Shown: one piece after another, positions 4 through 8,332 of the stretch
How positions within the stretch are numbered: position 1 is the stretch's first letter
Layout: each line of letters begins with the position of its first letter
Source of the DNA: Gammaproteobacteria bacterium
GTDB lineage: Bacteria > Pseudomonadota > Gammaproteobacteria > Chromatiales > Chromatiaceae
Length of the DNA: 8,332 nt
Direction of reading: 5' to 3'
Assembly: GCA_019136395.1 (NCBI GenBank)
Contig: JAGVUH010000681.1
Span: forward strand, 1 to 8,332
Program-made: the position numbers and the translations under genes
Notes under the pieces: generated by a model
The model's input: the letters and a program-made list of their open reading frames with translations, nothing else
What the model was told of the DNA's origin: nothing
Database searches by the model: none

Positions 4-1062
4 TTAAGCCAGTCGGGTTGTCACCCCCACGGTCAGACGGTGCCGGCCGCCGCCGCGGATGACGCCGCGCAGGGGGGCCACATCGCCGTAGTCACGCCCG
101 ACGGCGACCCGGACGTGTTCGACGCCGGGGATCAGGTCATTCGTCGGATCGAGATCCAGCCAGCCGTCCGCCGGCACCCCCGGGGTGCCTGGGGTGTAGA
201 CCTGGACCCAGGCATGGGAGGCGTCGGCCCCCACTAGGGCGACGCCCGTCGCCGGGCAGGTCCGCAGATAGCCGCTGACATAGCGGGCGGGCAGACCGAG
301 CAGGCGCAGGGCGCCGGCCATGACGTGGGCCAGATCCTGACAGACGCCCCGCCGCTGGGCGAAGGCCCGCGCCACGGGGGTGTCAACCTCGGTACTGCGG
401 GCCTCGTAGCGGAAGTCGCCATGGATGCGCCGCATCAGGTCGATCGCCCCCGCCGCCAGGGGCCGGCCGGGGGGGAAGGAGGGGGCGGCATAGTCGCCCA
501 GGTCGGCCAGGCGGGACAGATAGGGCGAGGGCTGGACGAATTCGACCGCCGGGTCGAAGGGGGCCCCCGCCACGTAGCGCAACCGGTCCCGCACCGTTTC
601 CCAGGGCGGCGCGGCCGCCGGCTCCAGCCCGGTGAAGCGCGGCGCCACCCACACCTGGCTGCGGGCGTTGACGATTAGCCGCCGATGGGGCTTGAGCAGG
701 GTGAGATAGCAGCAGGGGTTGCCGAAGACATCCCGAGCCTCGCGCCGGCGGGCGGGGGGCGGGTCGACCTGGAGTTCATGGGCCAGCAATCGCTGATGGG
801 CGTCGCTCAACGGCTGGAGATAGGCCAGGTGATGGGCCAGGGAGACCGCCAGTTCGTAGTCATACAGGGTCTCGTGCAGGATCTCCAGGACAACGGGAGC
901 TTGGGGCGTATCCATTGTGGCTGTCCGGACATCCTCTCCGCTCGGGACCGATGCCCCCAGGACGGCAGGTGACGGGCCCAGCGCCAAGGCCGGAGCCTGA
1001 TCTCCGACCAGCCCAGCCTGTCCATGGGCCAGCCCCTCATCCGCATCCGGGTGGTGACTCAT
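4..1062 (-). CDS. Transglutaminase-like (papain-fold) protein, third gene of the amidoligase operon
   Basis: This is a 352-residue cytoplasmic protein with no signal peptide or membrane segment. Residues about 56-140 match the bacterial transglutaminase N-terminal beta domain. The core follows, with a complete catalytic triad: Cys241 in RGVCQDLAHV, His283 in DASHAWVQVY and Asp305 in GWLDLDPTND. In this family the fold can hydrolyse or transfer amide bonds; the substrate here is unknown, and from its neighbours I infer that it processes the product of the two ligases. The ATG at 1062 overlaps the upstream stop as ATGA, which suggests translational coupling. However, residues 1-49 are low-complexity and built partly of 7-residue repeats, while family homology starts only after Met50 (ATG at 915, giving 303 residues, a more usual length). 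Both starts are possible. The first 54 or so residues of the family domain resemble the N-terminus of the 1205-residue protein in the same operon. The stop lies at 4-6, so nothing downstream is visible. Confidence 0.93.
   Translation of the reverse strand: MSHHPDADEGLAHGQAGLVGDQAPALALGPSPAVLGASVPSGEDVRTATMDTPQAPVVLEILHETLYDYELAVSLAHHLAYLQPLSDAHQRLLAHELQVDPPPARRREARDVFGNPCCYLTLLKPHRRLIVNARSQVWVAPRFTGLEPAAAPPWETVRDRLRYVAGAPFDPAVEFVQPSPYLSRLADLGDYAAPSFPPGRPLAAGAIDLMRRIHGDFRYEARSTEVDTPVARAFAQRRGVCQDLAHVMAGALRLLGLPARYVSGYLRTCPATGVALVGADASHAWVQVYTPGTPGVPADGWLDLDPTNDLIPGVEHVRVAVGRDYGDVAPLRGVIRGGGRHRLTVGVTTRLA
931..1035 (-). repeat. Degenerate 21-bp (heptad-coding) repeats at the gene 2 / gene 3 junction
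   Basis: Read on the minus strand, residues 10-44 of the transglutaminase fall into seven-residue units: GLAHGQA, GLVGDQA, PALALGP, SPAVLGA, SVPSGED. The first two units (1015-1035 and 994-1014) agree at 15 of 21 bases; the later ones are much more decayed. The tract sits exactly at the overlap with the preceding gene, as the longer 21-bp array does one gene upstream. It may be an intercistronic repeat that is read as an N-terminal extension. Confidence 0.5.
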
Positions 1063-4001
1063 ATGTGCTGGACCTGGCTGGGCCCTTCGGCCAGGGCGAA
1101 ATAGCGATGGCCAATCTCCTCGGCCAGGGACAGGGCCCGCTGACGCAGGTCCCGCGCCAGATCCCCGAGGATGACGGCGAGGGTCGCGTCATCCACCTCG
1201 CGCAGATCCTCCAGGCTGATCCCCACGCCCGCGGCGGGCAGGCGGGCGACCAGGGATGCCGGCCCCGCTTCGCCTTTGCTGTTGAAAGCTCTGGGGGTGG
1301 CGGTTGCGGTGACTGTAGCACTGGCGGTGGTGCTGCCAGTTACGCCCCCGGCACCGGGCAGCTTGGACAGCTCGGTGCGCAGGCGCCGCAGCACCCCGGC
1401 AAAGGCGCGGGGATTGGTATCGTCGAGCACCAGCAGGTCCGCCAGGGCCAGCAGGTCCTCGTGCCCCTGGTAACGGGCGCGGAAGGTGATGGTGCTGTCG
1501 AACAGCTCCAGCAGATGGGAGACGCCGGCGGTGCTGGCCAGGGCGCCGGTGGCGAGAAAGACCTCCAGGCTCTGGGTCAGACCGACCAGACGTTCCAGGA
1601 GGCGGCCCAGGATCAGGAGCCGCCAGCCCAGGTCGCGGGTCATGCGGTCCGACTGGGCCCCGGTGGCCGCCGCCAGTTGCACCGCCAGCCGGTCCAGGGC
1701 CGGCAGGACCTTGGCCATCACGGGCAGGCCCTCCTCCGCCGGGCTCAGGCTGCGGGAGAAGATGACCCGCATGCGCTGCATCAGCGACCAGTGTTCGGTG
1801 GACAGCCGGTCGCGCAGGGCCAGGGAGACCCGTTCCAGGGCCTGAAGGTTGAAGGGGATGCCCGGGATCAGCCCCACCTCCGCCCCGCTGGCCGCCAGGC
1901 CCCGCAGCAGGGCCCGTTCGTAATCCCGGGGCGAGACCCCCGGACCCGCCTCCCCACCCGCAACTCGGACTCCTGCCCCGGCCCCGGCAAGGGCCCCGTC
2001 TCCGGCCCCATCTCCGGCAGCGGCACGAACTCCGCCTCCGGCAACGGACCCGTCTCCGGCAGCAGCGCGATCTCCGACTCCGACTCCGGCCCCAACGCCG
2101 GCCCCGACCAGACCGGCCCTGACGCCCAGGGTGGACAGGGCCTCCAGCAGGGGCCCGCTGGCGGCACCGTCGTCGGCGATGAACAGCAGGCTGGCCCGCG
2201 CCAGGCTCACCTGTTGTTCGGTCCTCTCGGTATAGCGCCCCAGCCAGAAGAGGTTCTCCCCGGTGCGGCTGCTGAGGGGGCGACGGCGACCGCGCACCTC
2301 GTCCACGGACAGCTTTCCCGGAAGCAGGGAAAAGGCATCCACCGGCCCCGCCGTCAGCACCCAGGTGTCCAGGCTGGTACCGCCGCGCTGCATGGAGACG
2401 CTGGCTTCCTCGCGGCGGGCCACCCGGGTCATGCCGCCCGGCAGGAGCTGCCAGCCGCCCTGGCCATCGGCAATGGCATAGACCCGCACCAGGGCGGGGC
2501 GGAGCCTTAAGCCCCGGCCCTGCCAGAGGGGCGTGCGGGAGAGGCGCAACCGGCTCTGGATGGTCCAGGCATCCGGGTCCAACCCGATGCGCGCCGGGTC
2601 CGCGGCGAACACCGGCGAGGTCCGCCCCCCCTGGGGAAAGGTGCCCCGCGCCCGCTTGTCGTCCAACTGGTCCTTGACGGCGTCCCAGGCCGCCGGCTCG
2701 CCGCACCACCAGGTGGGCAGGGCGGGCAGAAGCAACTCCTGATCGAGCAGCCGGCGGGCAATAGCGGGCAGGAAGCCCAGGATCGCCGGCGACTCCAGGA
2801 CGGCGCTGCCCAGGGCATTGGCCATCACCACCTGGCCAGCGCGGACGACCTGCACCAGGCCGGGCACGCCCAACGCCGAATCGGGGCGCAACTCCAGGGG
2901 ATCGCACCAGTCATCATCGACCCGGCGCAGCAGGCCATGGACGGGTTCCAGCCCCTCCACCGTCTTCAGCCACAGCCGTTCGTCCCGCACCTGCAGATCG
3001 CCCCCCTCGACCAGGGTGAGGCCCAGATAGCGGGCCAGATAGGCCTGCTCGTACCAGGTCTCGCTGTAAGGGCCGGCCGTCAGCAGGGCCAGCCGCGGCG
3101 GCTGGCCGCCGGCCAGCTCCCGCGCCGGCCCCTCGATGGCATCCAGCAACCGCCGGTAGCCGCTGGCGATGTGCTGTACCCGCAAGTCGCGGAAGGCCCC
3201 GGGGAACTGGGCCATGACCAGCAGCCGGTTGTGCAGGACATAGCCCAGCCCCGAGGGTACCTGGGTGCGCTGGGCCACCAGCCACCAGCCGCCCTCCGGC
3301 CCCCGGGCGATATCGAAGGCGATGACGAGCAGATGGTGGCCCCCGGCCGGGCGTACCCCATGCAGGGGGCGGACATAGCCGGGATGGCGAAAGACGAGGG
3401 CCGGCGGCAGCAGACCCTCCGCCAGCAGTCGGCGGGGGCCATAGAGGTCCGCCAGGATCGCCTGGAGGAGGCGGGCCCGTTGCGTCAGGCCCGCCTCGAT
3501 GCGGGCCCAGTCCTCGGGGGCGATCAGGAAGGGCAGCAGCTCCACCGACCAGGGGCGCGTCGCGACACCCGCGGGGCCGAAGACGTTGTGGGTGACGCCA
3601 TCGCGCAGGATCCGCTCGTCCACCTGGTGCCGGCGGCGGTCCAGCTCGGCGGCCAGGTCCTGCCCTGGCGGCAAAGTGGGCAGGAGGGCGGCGAAGCGCG
3701 CCCAAGAGGGTCGGAGCGATCCGTCGTTCGCGCGCAGCTCGTCCCAGGCATCGGGAGAAGGTGGGGCGGTTATCCCGACGAAAGGGTTATCGACCAGTCC
3801 CTTGGGCTTAGACTCCGGCCCCCGGGGAGTGAACACCGCCCCCTCTGACAGGGACGCAGCCCCCTCGGGACATGAGCTTGTCTCCTGGGGTCCGGCCGCT
3901 GGTCCCTGGTGGTCGGATGTCAGCCCCACAATGTTAGACGCTGGCCCGTCGGGGTCAGACAGGGGCCCATGCGCGACGGGACTGCTTGGGCGCGGTTCCA
4001 C
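1059..4001 (-). CDS. Circularly permuted ATP-grasp fused to alpha-E domain
   Basis: This is a 980-residue cytoplasmic protein, predicted to be an ATP-dependent carboxylate-amine ligase. Residues about 83-560 are a circularly permuted ATP-grasp (DUF404/DUF407 type). Family landmarks include DAWDEL (84-89), GVTHNVFG (135-142), RHPGYVRPLHGV (205-216), QVPSGLGYVLHNRL (247-260), LLTAGPYSETWYEQAYLAR (306-324), RRVDDDWCDPLELRPDS (359-375) and NALGSAVLES (395-404). Residues about 576-970 are an alpha-E (DUF403) helical domain opening with LSSRTGENLFWLGRYTER. In many genomes these two domains are separate genes; here they are fused. The GTG start at 4001 lies 6 bp after the preceding stop and has no clear ribosome binding site. 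An in-frame GTG at 3836, preceded by AGAGGGG, is an alternative that would remove most of the repeat-coded N-terminus (residues 12-74). Further low-complexity insertions occupy about 623-690 and 882-912. The domain identity is certain; the substrate is unknown. Confidence 0.95.
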   Translation of the reverse strand: MEPRPSSPVAHGPLSDPDGPASNIVGLTSDHQGPAAGPQETSSCPEGAASLSEGAVFTPRGPESKPKGLVDNPFVGITAPPSPDAWDELRANDGSLRPSWARFAALLPTLPPGQDLAAELDRRRHQVDERILRDGVTHNVFGPAGVATRPWSVELLPFLIAPEDWARIEAGLTQRARLLQAILADLYGPRRLLAEGLLPPALVFRHPGYVRPLHGVRPAGGHHLLVIAFDIARGPEGGWWLVAQRTQVPSGLGYVLHNRLLVMAQFPGAFRDLRVQHIASGYRRLLDAIEGPARELAGGQPPRLALLTAGPYSETWYEQAYLARYLGLTLVEGGDLQVRDERLWLKTVEGLEPVHGLLRRVDDDWCDPLELRPDSALGVPGLVQVVRAGQVVMANALGSAVLESPAILGFLPAIARRLLDQELLLPALPTWWCGEPAAWDAVKDQLDDKRARGTFPQGGRTSPVFAADPARIGLDPDAWTIQSRLRLSRTPLWQGRGLRLRPALVRVYAIADGQGGWQLLPGGMTRVARREEASVSMQRGGTSLDTWVLTAGPVDAFSLLPGKLSVDEVRGRRRPLSSRTGENLFWLGRYTERTEQQVSLARASLLFIADDGAASGPLLEALSTLGVRAGLVGAGVGAGVGVGDRAAAGDGSVAGGGVRAAAGDGAGDGALAGAGAGVRVAGGEAGPGVSPRDYERALLRGLAASGAEVGLIPGIPFNLQALERVSLALRDRLSTEHWSLMQRMRVIFSRSLSPAEEGLPVMAKVLPALDRLAVQLAAATGAQSDRMTRDLGWRLLILGRLLERLVGLTQSLEVFLATGALASTAGVSHLLELFDSTITFRARYQGHEDLLALADLLVLDDTNPRAFAGVLRRLRTELSKLPGAGGVTGSTTASATVTATATPRAFNSKGEAGPASLVARLPAAGVGISLEDLREVDDATLAVILGDLARDLRQRALSLAEEIGHRYFALAEGPSQVQHI
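1266..1358 (-). repeat. Thr/Ala/Val-rich low-complexity tract near the alpha-E C-terminus
   Basis: Residues about 882-912 of the ATP-grasp/alpha-E protein contain alternating small residues (GSTTASATVTATATP). The coding DNA is roughly hexanucleotide-periodic, with variants of GGCGGT, GCGGTG and GTAGCA on the plus strand. The tract separates two helical blocks of the alpha-E domain (RRLRTELSK before, ISLEDLREVDD after), so it is best read as an expanded loop rather than a functional motif. Confidence 0.5.
1932..2135 (-). repeat. Degenerate hexanucleotide repeat coding a Gly-X dipeptide insertion in alpha-E
   Basis: The plus strand shows repeated six-base units such as GACTCC, GGCCCC, GTCTCC, ATCTCC and GGCAGC. 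On the coding strand these give alternating Gly-Ala, Gly-Val and Gly-Asp dipeptides (GAGVGAGVGVGD and similar) over residues about 623-690. The tract lies early in the alpha-E domain, between the opening helices (ENLFWLGRYTER to LLEALSTLGV) and the next one (PRDYERALLRGLAAS). It keeps the reading frame and looks like a slippage-expanded loop. Confidence 0.65.
3780..3968 (-). repeat. Nine tandem degenerate 21-bp repeats coding a heptad N-terminal extension
   Basis: Residues 12-74 of the ATP-grasp/alpha-E protein divide exactly into nine seven-residue units, eight of which begin with Gly: GPLSDPD, GPASNIV, GLTSDHQ, GPAAGPQ, ETSSCPE, GAASLSE, GAVFTPR, GPESKPK, GLVDNPF. The matching 21-bp DNA units have no indels. 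Shared features are GGGSC at the unit start, GTCT in the middle and CCC near the end. The units are hydrophilic and lack a coiled-coil pattern. The array directly follows the junction with the upstream gene. Confidence 0.75.
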
Positions 4002-4007
4002 GATGGC

Positions 4008-7000
4008 TCAGCCCGCGCGGCGCAGGTCCAGGGTGAAGGGGAAGTCGCGGCTGGGCCGGGCCGGCGCCACCTCCTGCCGCCCCGGGCTATGGCCGAAGCG
4101 GAAGAAACGCGCCAGCCGGCGGCTCTCGGCCTCGTAGGCGTTGACCGGGAAGGTCTCGTAGTGGCGACCGCCCGGGTGGGCGACGTGATAGCGGCAACCG
4201 CCCAGGGAGCGGCCCAGTTCCCGGTCGACGATATCCACCGTCAGGGGGGCGTGGACGCCGATGGTCGGGTGGAGGGCCGAGGGCGGCTGCCAGGCGCGGT
4301 AGCGCACGCCGCAGACAAACTCGCCGGCGCGGCCGCTGGGCTGCAAGGGGGCGGCGACGCCATTGACGGCGATGACATAGCGGCTGTCGTCCAGGCCCTG
4401 GACCTTGAGTTCCAGGCGCTCCAGGGAGGAGTCGACGAAGCGCACCGTGGTGCCGGCGGCCCCCTCCTCCCCCATGACGTGCCAGGGCTCCAGGGCGGCG
4501 CGCAAGGTGAGCCCGATGCCGCGGGTCGCCACCTCGCCGATGAGGGGGAAGCGGAACTCGAAATGGGGGGCGAACCAGGCCGGATCGAAGGCGAAGCCGG
4601 CCTGGTTGAGCGCGGCGATCACATCCTCGAAGTCGTACTGGACGAAGGTGGGCAGCAAAAAGCGGTCGTGCAGGCCGGTGCCCCAGCGCGTCAGGCGGGT
4701 GGGGGAATAGAGCTTGTCGATGCAGAACTCACTGCGGTGGGTATTGCCGCTGGCGTCGATGAGCAGGTTGCGCAGGCAGCGGTCCACCAGCCAGGGGGGC
4801 ACGGCGCCACCAACCTGTTGCGGGCCAGCGCCGAAGCCACCGTCCAGCAAGCCCCGCGCAGCACCCTTCCGCGAATCTGGCCGAGAACCCCCGTCAACAT
4901 TGGGACCGGACCCAGCCCCTAACCCGACCCCGGGGCTGCCATCCATCTGGCGCTCCAGCTCGGCCAGGGCGATCTCGATCTCGTAGACCTGGTCCTGGCG
5001 CGCCTCATCGAGGCGGGGCGCCTGGCTGGTGGGGCCGATGAAGAGGCCGCTGAAGAGATAACTCAGGGCGGGGTGGTTATGCCAATAGGCCAGCAGACTG
5101 GCGAGCAGGTCCGGGCGGCGCAGGAAGGGGCTATCGGCGGGGGTGGGGCCGCCCAGGACGAAGTGGTTGCCGCCGCCGGTCCCGGTGTGACGGCCATCGA
5201 GCATGAACTTCTCCGTCGACAAACGCGCCTGGTGGGCGGCCTCGTAGAGGAATTCGGTATGGTCCTGGAGCTCGTCCCAGTCGTGGGCGGGGTGGATGTT
5301 GACCTCGATGACGCCCGGATCGGGGGTGACCTGCAAGACCCGCAGCCGCGGGTCACGGGGGGGTGGATAGCCCTCCAGGATCAGCTTCACGCCTAGGGCG
5401 GCGCCCGTCGCCTCGATGGCGGTCAGCAGCTCCAGATAGTCCTCCAGATGCTGGAGCGGCGGCATGAAGACGTAGAGGACACCACTCTGCCCCACCTGTT
5501 CGGCCTCGGCCCGGGGGCCGTTGGCGCGCCGGGGATCCCGGACCTCCACGCACAGGGCGGTGCGAGTGAGCCAGCCGGCGGACTGATGGCGTTCCGGCCG
5601 GGTACCCGCGGCCACCGGATGGGGCCTGCCGGGCTGATGGGACGGAGTACGCTCATTGCCGCCAGCTGGGCTCATCTCTCCAATCCCACCGGTACTACCA
5701 GTACTCCCAGTACCGACCTTAGCCGCAGTCCCCCCAGCCTTCCCCCGCCAAGCCCCGGGATCTTCCGCATCATCAGTTCCTACGCCACTGCCCCAGCCGG
5801 CCTCACCGGCGTCCAGAAAATCGGGCCAGGCCTGGCCCTGCAGGGCCACGGCCCCACCCTCGGCGAAGCCATACCCTTGCTGGTGGGCGTCGTAGCCGGT
5901 CTGGAGGCGCAGTTCGGCGGCGCTCGGCAGAGGCGCGGCGGGGGCGAAGGGATCCGGGGCCGGCGTGAAGGGCTGATCGCCCTGATCCGCCCAGGGCAGC
6001 GAGTCCAGGGGCAGACGGTAGCCCATGGGCGAGTCGCCGGGGATCAGATAAAGTCGGTCGTCGCGCGGGAACCAGGGGCCGGTGATCCAGCACGGTCCCT
6101 CCTCGCCAGCGATCCATTCGCGGCGCAGAGGCAGAACATAGCCGACCGGCTGGTCCAGGCCCTGGGCGAAGACCCGCCGCAGGCGCGCCCGTTCCATTTC
6201 GTCGTCGAGGCGGGAATCAAAGGGGTCCACGTTCACCGGCAGCCGGCGCTCGCGCCACAGGTAATAGAAGGTGTCCTCATAGCCGGGCATGACATGGCCC
6301 GGGTCCAGGTTCAGGCGCCGGCAGAGGGCCTGGAGGAAGGCCAGGGCATCGGCATCGCCGTAGCGCTGCTGGCCCTGGCGCTCGTCGGCGAAGAGGCCGG
6401 GATCCTGCCAGCAGGGCTGGCCATCGGCCCGCCAGCACAGGGACAGGGCCCAACGCGGCAGTTGTTCGCCGGGGTACCACTTGCCCTGGCCGAAGTGGAG
6501 GAAACCGCCCTGGCCATAGCGGCCCCGCAGCCGATGGATCAGATCGGTGGCCAGGCTGCGTTTGGTGGGACCCAGGGCCTCCGTATTCCACTCGGCGCTA
6601 TCGCGGTCATCCACCGCGACGAAGGTAGGCTCACCGCCCATGGTCAGGCGCACGTCCCCCGCCATCAGTTGGGCATCCACCGCCCGGCCCAGAGTGGCGA
6701 TAGCCGCCCACTGGTCCTCGGTGTAGGGCTTGGTCACCCGCGGCGATTCGTGGATACGGGTCACCCCCATCTTATGGTCAAACTGGACCTCGCAGTCATC
6801 CACCGCCCCCGAGATGGGGGCGGCCGTGGCCGGCTCCGGGGTGCAGGCCACCGGGATGTGCCCCTCCCCGGCCAGCAGACCGGAGGTGGGGTCCAGGCCG
6901 ATCCAGCCGGCCCCGGGCAGATAGACCTCGCACCAGGCGTGCAGGTCGGTGAAGTCGGCCTCGGCGCCGGAGGGCCCATCCAGGGACTTGACGTCGGGCT

Positions 7001-7625
7001 TGAGCTGGATGAGGTAGCCGGAGACGAAGCGCGCCGCCAGGCCCAGGTGACGCAGGGTCTGGACCAGCAGCCAGCCGCTGTCGCGGCAGGACCCGGAGCC
7101 CAGGGCCAGGGTCTCCTCGGGGGTCTGCACCCCGGGTTCCAGGCGGATCAGATAGAGGATGTCCCGTTGCAGCCGTTGGTTGAGATCCACCAGGAAATCA
7201 ATGGTCCGCATCCGCTCCCGGGGGATGCTGGCGAGGAAGGCCTGGAAGCGGGGCGTCAGCGCGCCTTTGGCGAGGTAAGGCAGCAGGTCTCGTTCCAGCT
7301 CCGGGGCATAGCGAAAGGGGTAGTGCTCCGCCTCTGGTTCCAGGAAGAAATCAAAGGGGTTGTAGACCGCCATCTCGGCGACCAGGTCGACGCTGACCTG
7401 GAACTCCCGGGTGCGCTCCGGGAAGACCAGGCGCGCCAGATAGTTGGCAAAGGGGTCCTGCTGCCAGTTGATGAAATGGTCCGCCGGCGCGACCCGCAGG
7501 GAATAACTCAGGATGGGGGTGCGGCAGTGCGGCGCCGGGCGCAGGCGCACCACCTGGGGCGAGAGGGACACCAGGCGGTCGTAGCGATACCGGGTGACAT
7601 GGTTGAGGGCGACGTGGATGGACAA
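4008..7625 (-). CDS. Transglutaminase-like / DUF2126 putative amidoligase fusion
   Basis: This is a 1205-residue cytoplasmic protein and the first gene of the operon. Residues about 2-90 are the bacterial transglutaminase N-terminal domain (SIHVALNHVTRYRYDR). The papain-like core has its triad at Cys180 (GSGSCRDSGW), His229 (DLHAWCEVYLPG) and Asp245 (GWIGLDPTS). From about 293 to 1195 it is DUF2126, a family predicted to be a glutamine-synthetase-fold carboxylate-amine ligase. Conserved blocks include MGGEPTFVAVDDRDSAEWNT (329-348), GKWYPGEQLPRWALS (381-395), EGYPPPRDPRL (751-761), VIEVNIHPAHDWDEL (772-786) and HTGTGGGNHFVLGG (813-826). I infer that ligation and transfer or trimming are coupled in one polypeptide. 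I chose the TTG at 7625 because GGAG lies 6 nt upstream and homology begins directly after it. A GTG at 7661 would add 12 residues but falls at the predicted transcription start. Low-complexity insertions lie at about 595-686 and 895-941. The product of the reaction is unknown. Confidence 0.95.
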   Translation of the reverse strand: MSIHVALNHVTRYRYDRLVSLSPQVVRLRPAPHCRTPILSYSLRVAPADHFINWQQDPFANYLARLVFPERTREFQVSVDLVAEMAVYNPFDFFLEPEAEHYPFRYAPELERDLLPYLAKGALTPRFQAFLASIPRERMRTIDFLVDLNQRLQRDILYLIRLEPGVQTPEETLALGSGSCRDSGWLLVQTLRHLGLAARFVSGYLIQLKPDVKSLDGPSGAEADFTDLHAWCEVYLPGAGWIGLDPTSGLLAGEGHIPVACTPEPATAAPISGAVDDCEVQFDHKMGVTRIHESPRVTKPYTEDQWAAIATLGRAVDAQLMAGDVRLTMGGEPTFVAVDDRDSAEWNTEALGPTKRSLATDLIHRLRGRYGQGGFLHFGQGKWYPGEQLPRWALSLCWRADGQPCWQDPGLFADERQGQQRYGDADALAFLQALCRRLNLDPGHVMPGYEDTFYYLWRERRLPVNVDPFDSRLDDEMERARLRRVFAQGLDQPVGYVLPLRREWIAGEEGPCWITGPWFPRDDRLYLIPGDSPMGYRLPLDSLPWADQGDQPFTPAPDPFAPAAPLPSAAELRLQTGYDAHQQGYGFAEGGAVALQGQAWPDFLDAGEAGWGSGVGTDDAEDPGAWRGKAGGTAAKVGTGSTGSTGGIGEMSPAGGNERTPSHQPGRPHPVAAGTRPERHQSAGWLTRTALCVEVRDPRRANGPRAEAEQVGQSGVLYVFMPPLQHLEDYLELLTAIEATGAALGVKLILEGYPPPRDPRLRVLQVTPDPGVIEVNIHPAHDWDELQDHTEFLYEAAHQARLSTEKFMLDGRHTGTGGGNHFVLGGPTPADSPFLRRPDLLASLLAYWHNHPALSYLFSGLFIGPTSQAPRLDEARQDQVYEIEIALAELERQMDGSPGVGLGAGSGPNVDGGSRPDSRKGAARGLLDGGFGAGPQQVGGAVPPWLVDRCLRNLLIDASGNTHRSEFCIDKLYSPTRLTRWGTGLHDRFLLPTFVQYDFEDVIAALNQAGFAFDPAWFAPHFEFRFPLIGEVATRGIGLTLRAALEPWHVMGEEGAAGTTVRFVDSSLERLELKVQGLDDSRYVIAVNGVAAPLQPSGRAGEFVCGVRYRAWQPPSALHPTIGVHAPLTVDIVDRELGRSLGGCRYHVAHPGGRHYETFPVNAYEAESRRLARFFRFGHSPGRQEVAPARPSRDFPFTLDLRRAG
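4803..4943 (-). repeat. Gly/Pro/Ser-rich low-complexity insertion in DUF2126 (distal)
   Basis: Residues about 895-941 of the amidoligase fusion are rich in Gly, Ser, Pro and Ala (PGVGLGAGSGP, GGFGAGPQQVGG). They interrupt the stretch between the helix EIEIALAELERQM and PPWLVDRCLRNLLIDASGN, which reads like ordinary conserved family sequence on both sides. Frame is maintained. I see it as an expanded surface loop. Confidence 0.5.
5568..5843 (-). repeat. Long low-complexity insertion in DUF2126 with a 9-bp tandem repeat
   Basis: Residues about 595-686 of the amidoligase fusion are Gly/Ser/Thr/Pro-rich and lie between EGGAVALQGQ and LTRTALCVEVRD, both family-like. Within the tract, 5691-5717 is three 9-bp units on the plus strand (ggtactacc, agtactccc, agtaccgac), encoding part of VGTGSTGSTGG. 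The remainder (PAGGNERTPSHQPGRPHP) is polar and disordered in character. The insertion is about 90 residues and in frame. Confidence 0.55.
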
Positions 7626-7629
7626 GGGG

Positions 7630-7636
7630 TTCTCCC
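7630..7636 (-). promoter_or_regulatory. Shine-Dalgarno site that decides the TTG start at 7625
   Basis: The minus strand reads GGGAGAA followed by CCCC and TTG. Counted from GGAG, the spacer to TTG is 6 nt. It is the only good ribosome binding site near the start of the amidoligase fusion; the upstream GTG at 7661 has no comparable element. Confidence 0.65.
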
Positions 7637-7669
7637 GGACGGCTGGGCCAGCAGGTGACACTACCGCTA

Positions 7670-7686
7670 AGCAAGGTCCGGGCCAG
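7670..7686 (-). promoter_or_regulatory. Predicted sigma-54 (-24/-12) promoter of the minus-strand operon
   Basis: The minus strand reads CTGGCCCGGACCTTGCT. Against the sigma-54 consensus YTGGCACGNNNNTTGCW, every defined position matches except the A after TGGC. The invariant GG (7684-7683) and GC (7672-7671) are separated by exactly 10 bases. The predicted transcription start is near 7660, leaving a leader of about 35 nt before the TTG codon with its Shine-Dalgarno site. No convincing sigma-70 promoter was seen nearer the gene. Confidence 0.6.
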
Positions 7687-7891
7687 TACCAAACCCAAAG
7701 TCACCCCTTCAGCCAGATTCGCCAGCCCATCAACAGGGGGAACGAGTGCAGATCCTTCCCCAGACTTCGTCCCTCCATTCGGTATCGCCCCCCGTGGGTA
7801 GCGGAAAGGGCCCGAAATGCAAGACCCCGCCGCGGGGAAGAAGACGCCGGCGGTGCGGCCATGCGCCAGAATCAGGCAGGAACCGCCGCAT

Positions 7892-7912
7892 CATGCCCAC
7901 CTATGGGGCATG
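7892..7912. promoter_or_regulatory. Palindrome, candidate activator (enhancer) binding site
   Basis: CATGCCC and GGGCATG are perfect 7-bp inverted arms around a 7-bp centre. The site is about 235-250 bp upstream of the predicted minus-strand start and about 265-285 bp upstream of the plus-strand start, a range from which sigma-54 enhancer-binding proteins can act. It does not match the NtrC consensus, so any activator is unidentified. It could also be an unrelated hairpin. Confidence 0.3.
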
Positions 7913-7920
7913 GACAGGTG

Positions 7921-7938
7921 AGGAGAGAATTCCCTCCT
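7921..7938. promoter_or_regulatory. 18-bp near-perfect palindrome centred on GAATTC
   Basis: AGGAGAGAATTCCCTCCT pairs with itself at eight of nine positions; the single mismatch is 7926 against 7933. It has no spacer, as expected for an operator bound by a compact dimer. It lies beside the palindrome at 7892-7912 and between the two divergent promoters, so it could serve either or both. Confidence 0.3.
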
Positions 7939-7961
7939 CGCGACACACCTGATTGAGCTGA

Positions 7962-7974
7962 AATCGAAACCTTA
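7962..7974 (+). promoter_or_regulatory. Possible IHF binding site
   Basis: AATCGAAACCTTA differs from the IHF consensus WATCAANNNNTTR at one base (G for A). It lies between the palindromes and the predicted plus-strand sigma-54 promoter, about 200 bp upstream of that start, where DNA bending by IHF would be expected. A single weak match of this kind can easily occur by chance. Confidence 0.22.
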
Positions 7975-8030
7975 TCCCCTCACCAGTCGCAGCCTCCCTT
8001 TGTCAGCCGACCCACGAGGAGCTTGAGGGA

Positions 8031-8130
8031 GGAGCGGGTGGCGTCTGGCGGGGGTGTCAACCGCAAGGATGCGGTTGTCAAGCCTACAGGGATGTATTCA
8101 CGGCGTCCCACGTCAGACGCCACCCGCTCC
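8031..8130. repeat. Multi-hairpin intergenic repeat with perfect 17-bp terminal inverted repeats
   Basis: The arms 8031-8047 (ggagcgggtggcgtctg) and 8114-8130 (cagacgccacccgctcc) are exact reverse complements separated by 66 bp. Pairing continues inward with a G-T, two Watson-Crick pairs, one mismatch and three more pairs. The centre holds a 7-bp hairpin (CAACCGC 8058-8064 with GCGGTTG 8071-8077) and the mini-palindrome TACAGGGATGTA (8085-8096). An alternative hairpin, GGCGTC 8102-8107 with GACGCC 8116-8121, competes with the outer stem. From memory, similar modules with ATACATCCCTGTA are scattered between genes in several gammaproteobacteria. It is probably a dispersed, non-autonomous repeat. 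It could also fold as RNA if transcribed. It contains no gene. Confidence 0.7.
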
Positions 8131-8148
8131 GGAAGAGTCGCGCCGTGG

Positions 8149-8165
8149 TTGGCATTCCTATTGCT
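8149..8165 (+). promoter_or_regulatory. Predicted sigma-54 (-24/-12) promoter of the divergent ATP-grasp gene
   Basis: TTGGCATTCCTATTGCT matches YTGGCACGNNNNTTGCW at TTGGCA and TTGCT; only the CG after TGGCA differs (TT here). GG at 8151-8152 and GC at 8163-8164 have exact N10 spacing, and AT-rich sequence follows. The predicted transcription start is near 8175, giving a leader of about 56 nt to the ATG at 8231. The element begins 18 bp after the intergenic repeat ends. Confidence 0.55.
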
Positions 8166-8186
8166 TAAAAACCTCAGCAATAGGAA
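8155..8186. promoter_or_regulatory. 11-bp perfect inverted repeat overlapping the -12 element and predicted start
   Basis: TTCCTATTGCT (8155-8165) is the exact reverse complement of AGCAATAGGAA (8176-8186), with a 10-nt A-rich centre. The left arm contains the -12 TTGCT and the right arm begins at the predicted transcription start. It could be an operator for a repressor, or a hairpin if transcription starts further upstream. It is not a good terminator, being fairly AT-rich and without a T tract. Confidence 0.4.
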
Positions 8187-8230
8187 ACCTCCTCCAGGGA
8201 TCTTCCTCCTGAGCCTATGGGTGCCCCACC

Positions 8231-8332
8231 ATGACCATCAATTGGAATCTGTACGATCCCCAGGGCGGCTACGACGAGCTCATCGGCGCCCCGGGCACCG
8301 CCCGCGCCCCGGCGACCCACCTCACCGACTGG
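8231..8332 (+). CDS. Probable circularly permuted ATP-grasp protein, N-terminal fragment (cut by window end)
   Basis: Thirty-four codons are visible, starting MTINWNLYDPQGGYDELIGA and running open to the edge of the window. The block GGYDELIGAPGTARAPATHL corresponds to the opening of the circularly permuted ATP-grasp family. It aligns with DAWDELRANDGSLRPSWARF in the operon protein on the other strand, sharing DEL, G and R at the same spacing. I therefore infer a second, divergently transcribed ATP-grasp paralogue. An ATG at 8217 is out of frame, so 8231 is the start; the only upstream purine stretch is a weak GGGTG 7 nt away. Expression is predicted from the -24/-12 element at 8149-8165. Whether it also carries an alpha-E domain cannot be seen. 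Confidence 0.75.
   Translation, partial: MTINWNLYDPQGGYDELIGAPGTARAPATHLTDW

Follow-up and report, generated by a model that had tools for sequence, protein, structure and literature searches.

An 8,332-nt stretch of gammaproteobacterial DNA (hereafter the window) probably carries a divergent σ54 control region, in which one shared NtrC enhancer would turn on both flanking gene sets under nitrogen limitation. Observed directly are two conserved −24/−12 elements, of a promoter type employed in bacterial responses to nitrogen starvation, a pair of phased dyads between them and, upstream of orthologous genes, enriched σ54 sites and NtrC-type dyads. Judged from these, dependence of the two predicted promoters on σ54 is nearly certain. 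NtrC is the probable activator at the candidate dyads, a lower grade because the window's own dyads are weak matches to NtrC sites.

The locus contains the domain set CP-ATPgrasp, Alpha-E, transglutaminase (TG) and DUF2126 (Pfam), with the plus-strand genes complete in G001, a close relative of the window bacterium (70% of sampled 31-letter words in common). There, an Alpha-E gene comes next after the plus-strand CP-ATPgrasp gene (Pfam CP_ATPgrasp, Alpha-E). The two divergent gene sets, each presumably an operon, are separated by an intergenic gap of 605 bp. We compared the window with genomes of the same genus (G001 to G004). The features are as follows, in window coordinates:

4..1062, minus strand: second transglutaminase-like (TG) protein (Pfam).
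1059..4001, minus strand: CP-ATPgrasp and Alpha-E fusion protein (Pfam).
4008..7625, minus strand: transglutaminase-like and DUF2126 putative amidoligase (Pfam Bact_transglu_N, Transglut_core, DUF2126).
7670..7686, minus strand (read from 7686 to 7670): predicted σ54 −24/−12 element CTGGCCCGGACCTTGCT for the transglutaminase-DUF2126 gene set; exact GG-N10-GC, 1 of 13 positions mismatched.
7862..7878: upstream dyad 1, TGCGCCAGAATCAGGCA; 17/17 identical in G004.
7894..7910: upstream dyad 2, TGCCCACCTATGGGGCA; 5-bp outer halves fully symmetric; 14/17 in G004.
8024..8135: imperfect palindrome of an interspersed kind, with 24-nt arms at 8031-8054 and 8107-8130, between the dyads and the plus promoter.
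8149..8165, plus strand: predicted σ54 −24/−12 element TTGGCATTCCTATTGCT for the CP-ATPgrasp/Alpha-E gene set; 2 of 13 positions mismatched.
8231..8332, plus strand: start of the CP-ATPgrasp gene (ATG 8231), cut by the window end; its 34 residues are 100% identical to G001.

The TG-DUF2126 gene probably starts at the TTG at 7625, as suggested by alignment with orthologues and a GGGAG upstream. In translation, the CP-ATPgrasp/Alpha-E fusion has a low-complexity Gly/Ala/Val-rich insert at approximately 1940-2120.

A preliminary description of this DNA had proposed a divergent pair of σ54-type elements with exact GG-N10-GC spacing, and our scan confirmed the pair, with one mismatch on the minus strand and two on the plus strand over 13 positions. 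The scan held the GG and GC of TGGCACG-N4-TTGC (the consensus in the accessible text of PMC3224663) at fixed spacing and counted mismatches over the 13 consensus positions. If transcription begins some 12 nt downstream of the −12 GC, near 7660 (minus) and 8176 (plus), the leaders would be about 35 nt (to TTG 7625) and 55 nt (to ATG 8231). Within the intergenic gap, no other site retains both GG and GC with three or fewer mismatches; the whole window contains one further site with two mismatches, at 7298 on the minus strand, within a gene. When the 605-bp gap was dinucleotide-shuffled 5,000 times, 0.26% of the shuffled sequences contained a site with no more than one mismatch and 0.02% contained at least two sites with no more than two. 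The shuffles and the spacing controls given below argue against base composition as the origin of the elements. A simple scan of 7500-8332 found no σ70 promoter, which says little because the shuffles average only 0.2 such matches.

As a yardstick, the same scan gave two mismatches for the σ54 element of E. coli glnAp2 and two, two and three for the glnA elements of G001, G003 and G004. Both window elements are thus at least as near the consensus as these glnA elements. In the accessible text of PMC3224663, a Xylella site matching 9 of 11 consensus positions is shown to be rpoN-dependent, and in that of PMC7045595 promoter strength is not predicted by closeness to the −24/−12 consensus.

Both elements are found at matching places in the three genus-mates compared (G001, G003 and G004); we left G002 out of the gap comparison, as its contig edge retains only the C-terminal end of the DUF2126 protein. 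The minus element is identical at 17/17 positions in G001 and 15/17 in G004, and G003 has the same 17-mer. The plus element is identical at 17/17 positions in G001 and 16/17 in G004, and in G003 it reads CTGGCACTCCTCTTGCT, which is nearer the consensus than that of the window. The G003 gap otherwise aligns little with the window, yet both elements are kept.

To cover orthologues more widely, we scored upstream regions of related loci, namely the best 80 of at least 592 matches, by their titles mostly Burkholderiales, which form an uneven sample of loci that are not independent. Gene starts here are tblastn starts rather than annotated ones. The 87 DUF2126 regions omit L032 and L033 (which share contigs with L123 and L113), L037 and L091 (upstream sequence too short) and L104 (no N-terminus). 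Loci from three of the window's genus-mates (L112, L113 and L123) count toward both these regions and the 54 CP-ATPgrasp regions. Within 400 bp upstream of DUF2126 on the same strand, σ54 sites with the correct N4 spacing occur in 34/87 regions, and each of eleven wrong spacings gives 0-3. After dereplication the count is 30/73, whereas 40 rounds of shuffling gave a mean of 1.3 and a maximum of 4. The reverse strand is less clean, with N4 in 10/87 and other spacings in 0-6. Upstream of CP-ATPgrasp, 31/54 regions have a site (wrong spacings, 0-5).

The preliminary description had named conservation of the GG and GC upstream of orthologues as the check on which its claim should fall; we ran this check and the claim stands, with conservation in all three genus-mates and, in 250-bp regions, sites upstream of 34/87 DUF2126 and 29/54 CP-ATPgrasp orthologues. 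In this uneven set, same-strand sites reach a density of 1.79/kb within 250 bp of the orthologous starts versus 0.026/kb per strand elsewhere in the loci, a difference of approximately 68-fold. Both genes were scored in 54 loci: 39 of these have a site at one gene or the other, 16 at both and 15 at neither. Close divergent pairs like that of the window also occur in three Burkholderiales loci (L053, L101 and L107).

In the family outside the genus, the pattern of σ54 sites is patchy. Two of the seven genomes examined have a site upstream of DUF2126 (G012 and G027; G015 lies outside this count) and G008, G019, G022, G026 and G034 have none there, G022 having one upstream of CP-ATPgrasp instead. 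Neither of two further genomes examined from the same class (G048 and G049) has a DUF2126 upstream site. As a positive control, we scanned the 450 bp preceding the domain start for 12 of 20 PII gene matches and found a σ54 site in none; glnA served as the positive control in their place.

Between the two promoters of the window lies a 49-bp block (7862-7910), absent from the preliminary description, that consists of two 17-bp dyads with starts exactly 32 bp apart. Together with the dyads, the linker (14/15 identical) makes this the one main block shared with G004, the flanking stretches matching at only 44/175 and 2/111 positions (gaps counted as mismatches). Phased dyads with 32 bp between starts are kept upstream of the σ54 element in G001 and G004, and the diverged G003 has CGCACCAAGTGAGGCGG, with one good half, and CGCCCTAAAAGGGTGCG, again exactly 32 bp apart. 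A YGC-N11-GCR pair at 32 bp arose in 1 of 3,000 shuffles, a result that is indicative only because the pattern was picked after viewing the sequence. The arrangement resembles the E. coli glnAp2 enhancer, where two NtrC dyads, each with one mismatch, likewise lie exactly 32 bp apart upstream of a two-mismatch σ54 element. The E. coli dyads are near consensus and serve glnA, whereas those of the window are weaker and sit between two promoters.

We scored NtrC dyads against YGCACY-N5-RGTGCR, which we take to be the consensus. The window's dyads lie more than two mismatches from it, as do the dyads of G001 and G004, and dyads of this kind have three and four mismatches to the stricter TGCACC form. 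The main dyad of G003 has one mismatch. In the orthologue survey, NtrC-type dyads (at most one mismatch) with N5 spacing occur upstream of DUF2126 in 23/87 regions (other spacings, 1-6), or 18/73 after dereplication (shuffle mean 2.5, maximum 6), and upstream of CP-ATPgrasp in 19/54 (other spacings, 1-6). Two loci, L046 and L092, have several YGCCCC-N5-GGGGCR dyads upstream of CP-ATPgrasp, for example TGCCCCTTTGCGGGGCG, that resemble the TGCCC halves in the window; these could alternatively be terminators.

RpoN is encoded in all four genus genomes and in 16 of the 19 genomes searched. NtrC is likewise present in all four, with the GAFTGA motif in the three checked (G001, G003 and G004). Together with the conserved elements, this supports the earlier proposal of control by an enhancer-binding activator, and among the signals listed with that proposal, nitrogen status is the one with evidence.

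The strongest alternative keeps both promoters σ54-dependent and assigns the dyads to another enhancer-binding protein, one that recognizes sites of the TGCCC-N7-GGGCA type. The deviation of the window's dyads from canonical NtrC half-sites would fit such a protein, and the NtrC model finds 38-92 matches in each of the four genus genomes, of which several are long regulators scoring below its cut-off. However, canonical NtrC dyads occur upstream of the same genes in some orthologues, and G003 and G022 have mixed dyads in which one half is canonical NtrC and the other is GCCC. In addition, the glnA genes of G001, G003 and G004 have a perfect dyad and a weaker one 31 bp away, and the weaker one in G001 and G004 starts with TGCCC, as the window's dyads do. 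We therefore consider a different activator unlikely and favor NtrC, on the basis of the N5 dyad enrichment, the mixed dyads, the TGCCC glnA dyads and the presence of NtrC in all four genomes.

The distances between the block and the promoters bear on whether both promoters are served. Measured from the predicted minus start, the dyad centers of the window are approximately 210 and 242 bp upstream; from the predicted plus start, the distances are approximately 274 and 306 bp. The corresponding distances in G004 are approximately 111 and 143 bp for the minus start and 89 and 121 bp for the plus start. The G004 gap is approximately 285 bp shorter than that of the window, and G001 carries the window's extra DNA. 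Part of the extra length is accounted for by the palindrome at 8024-8135 (approximately 106-112 bp), which is not at the corresponding place in G004. At least 28-32 matches to it were found in each of G001-G004 (27 scored of 81-157 candidates, some of them single arms), and a separate search gave 41 matches in G001; we aligned nine copies. Outside the genus, short partial matches occurred in 5 of 28 other genomes searched. We take the palindrome to be a bystander. Its Rfam matches were sub-threshold only (best 31.1 bits versus a gathering score of 70) and were set aside as chance.

It is conceivable that this repeat and neighboring stretches uncoupled the plus promoter from the enhancer, leaving a single active promoter and a remnant, as the dyad centers lie so much farther from the predicted plus start than in G004. 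We regard this as quite improbable, however, because the plus element is identical at 17/17 positions in G001, which has the same extra DNA, and because NtrC enhancers are reported to act over 1 kb or more (PMC7408454, accessible text).

Ntr control of such domain clusters is already published, and the window is an unusually clear further instance; added here are the divergent promoters around a shared double-dyad block and the spread of sites over many genera. The following comparisons reflect the accessible text of the papers cited. In Burkholderia cenocepacia H111, I35_5080-83 (DUF404/407, DUF403, TG and large TG) are among the common σ54 and NtrC targets, with changes of −6.0 to −9.4 fold tabulated for the ntrC mutant (PMC5491218). 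Compared by name rather than by sequence, the domains are the same as those of the window. I35_5080-83 is one four-gene cluster, whereas the window has two divergent sets with one shared candidate enhancer and carries the ATP-grasp/Alpha-E pair twice, once fused.

In Pseudomonas putida KT2440, PP_2685-2688 resembles the window locus in having CP-ATPgrasp (PP_2688) and TG (PP_2686) genes and in its nitrogen response, attributed to NtrB/NtrC (PMC7801951, PMC8050072, PMC3325844). It differs in that a proteasome-beta-like protein, PP_2685, probably Anbu, is part of the cluster, whereas the window's genus has Anbu elsewhere. PP_2686-2688 rise 11-15 fold in the wild type under nitrogen limitation (PP_2685, 1.12 fold) and still rise 14-20 fold in an rpoN mutant (PMC7801951). 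The latter result is hard to read because urtA, likewise attributed to NtrB/NtrC, also rose in that mutant (PMC7801951). PP_2685 and its neighbors are higher on nitrate or under nitrogen limitation (PMC8050072, PMC3325844). The Caulobacter gene hvyA, a TG homologue, carries an NtrC peak, yet its transcript rises without ntrC (PMC10274813). In marine metagenomes, these domains are associated with urea metabolism (PMC3597751). A search combining Chromatiaceae, NtrC and σ54 found no report, and we recognized no further report of Ntr control of these genes in literature mostly outside subscription journals.

The same gene families are known from the Anbu operon (ATP-grasp, Alpha-E, TG and Anbu; Iyer 2009 as cited in PMC5666114 and PMC6376114, accessible text), with CP-ATPgrasp, Alpha-E and TG present in the window too; unlike that operon, the window has no Anbu gene and adds the DUF2126 protein. 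According to the same text, Anbu is linked both to the ATP-grasp/Alpha-E/TG operon and to nitrogen starvation, and it had no peptidase activity on the substrates tried (PMC5666114, PMC6376114). In the genus, amtB is immediately followed by Anbu in G001 (L164), G002 (L145/L166) and G004 (L158), and in G002 and G004 a PII gene precedes amtB, giving a glnK-amtB-anbu arrangement. The Anbu and PII genes of G003 are on separate contigs. Among nine Anbu upstream regions scanned (of 10 matches), only that of G003 (L165) has a plausible σ54/dyad pair, with a three-mismatch element at −57 and a one-mismatch NtrC-type dyad with a TGCCC half at −157; G002 has a three-mismatch σ54 site alone and one G026 copy a two-mismatch dyad alone.

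Several observations weigh against the shared NtrC enhancer. Its case is weakened because the window's dyads miss the two-mismatch cut and because neither gene has a σ54 site in 15 of 54 loci; the patchy sites in the family, the PII result, the P. putida rpoN mutant, hvyA and the finding on promoter strength (PMC7045595, accessible text) also count against it. Those 15 loci could also suit −24/−12 matches that are chance or relics at genes using an unrecognized housekeeping promoter, but the shuffles, spacing controls, conservation and enrichment make this very improbable.

Under shared NtrC control, nitrogen limitation would lead phosphorylated NtrC to bind the two 32-bp-phased dyads at 7862-7910. 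Bound NtrC would then, through a DNA loop, cause σ54 polymerase to open at both promoters. The minus-strand genes (TG-DUF2126, CP-ATPgrasp/Alpha-E fusion and TG) and the plus-strand genes (CP-ATPgrasp and Alpha-E) would be induced together. Speculating from the domains and their regulation, the enzymes may form or exchange amide or isopeptide bonds, probably in nitrogen salvage. The accessible text of PMC5666114 considers a role for Anbu in peptide synthesis less likely than one in protein degradation, and this preference counts against the proposed salvage pathway.

More tentatively, and short of an even chance in our estimate, Ntr/σ54 control of the CP-ATPgrasp/Alpha-E/TG/DUF2126 system may be widespread in beta- and gammaproteobacteria, with the ligases and Anbu as parts of a single dispersed pathway for making and breaking amide bonds during nitrogen starvation and, in the window, one 49-bp enhancer running both halves of the locus. 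The link to Anbu within this proposal draws on its position beside glnK-amtB in this genus.

For the family of putative amidoligases, the sites provide cis-regulatory evidence, at orthologues in many genera, for nitrogen limitation as the likely inducer. Nitrogen limitation is thus when the product of the putative amidoligase should be sought and the condition under which mutants may reveal a phenotype. As a candidate enhancer between the two promoters, the double-dyad block is compact and testable.
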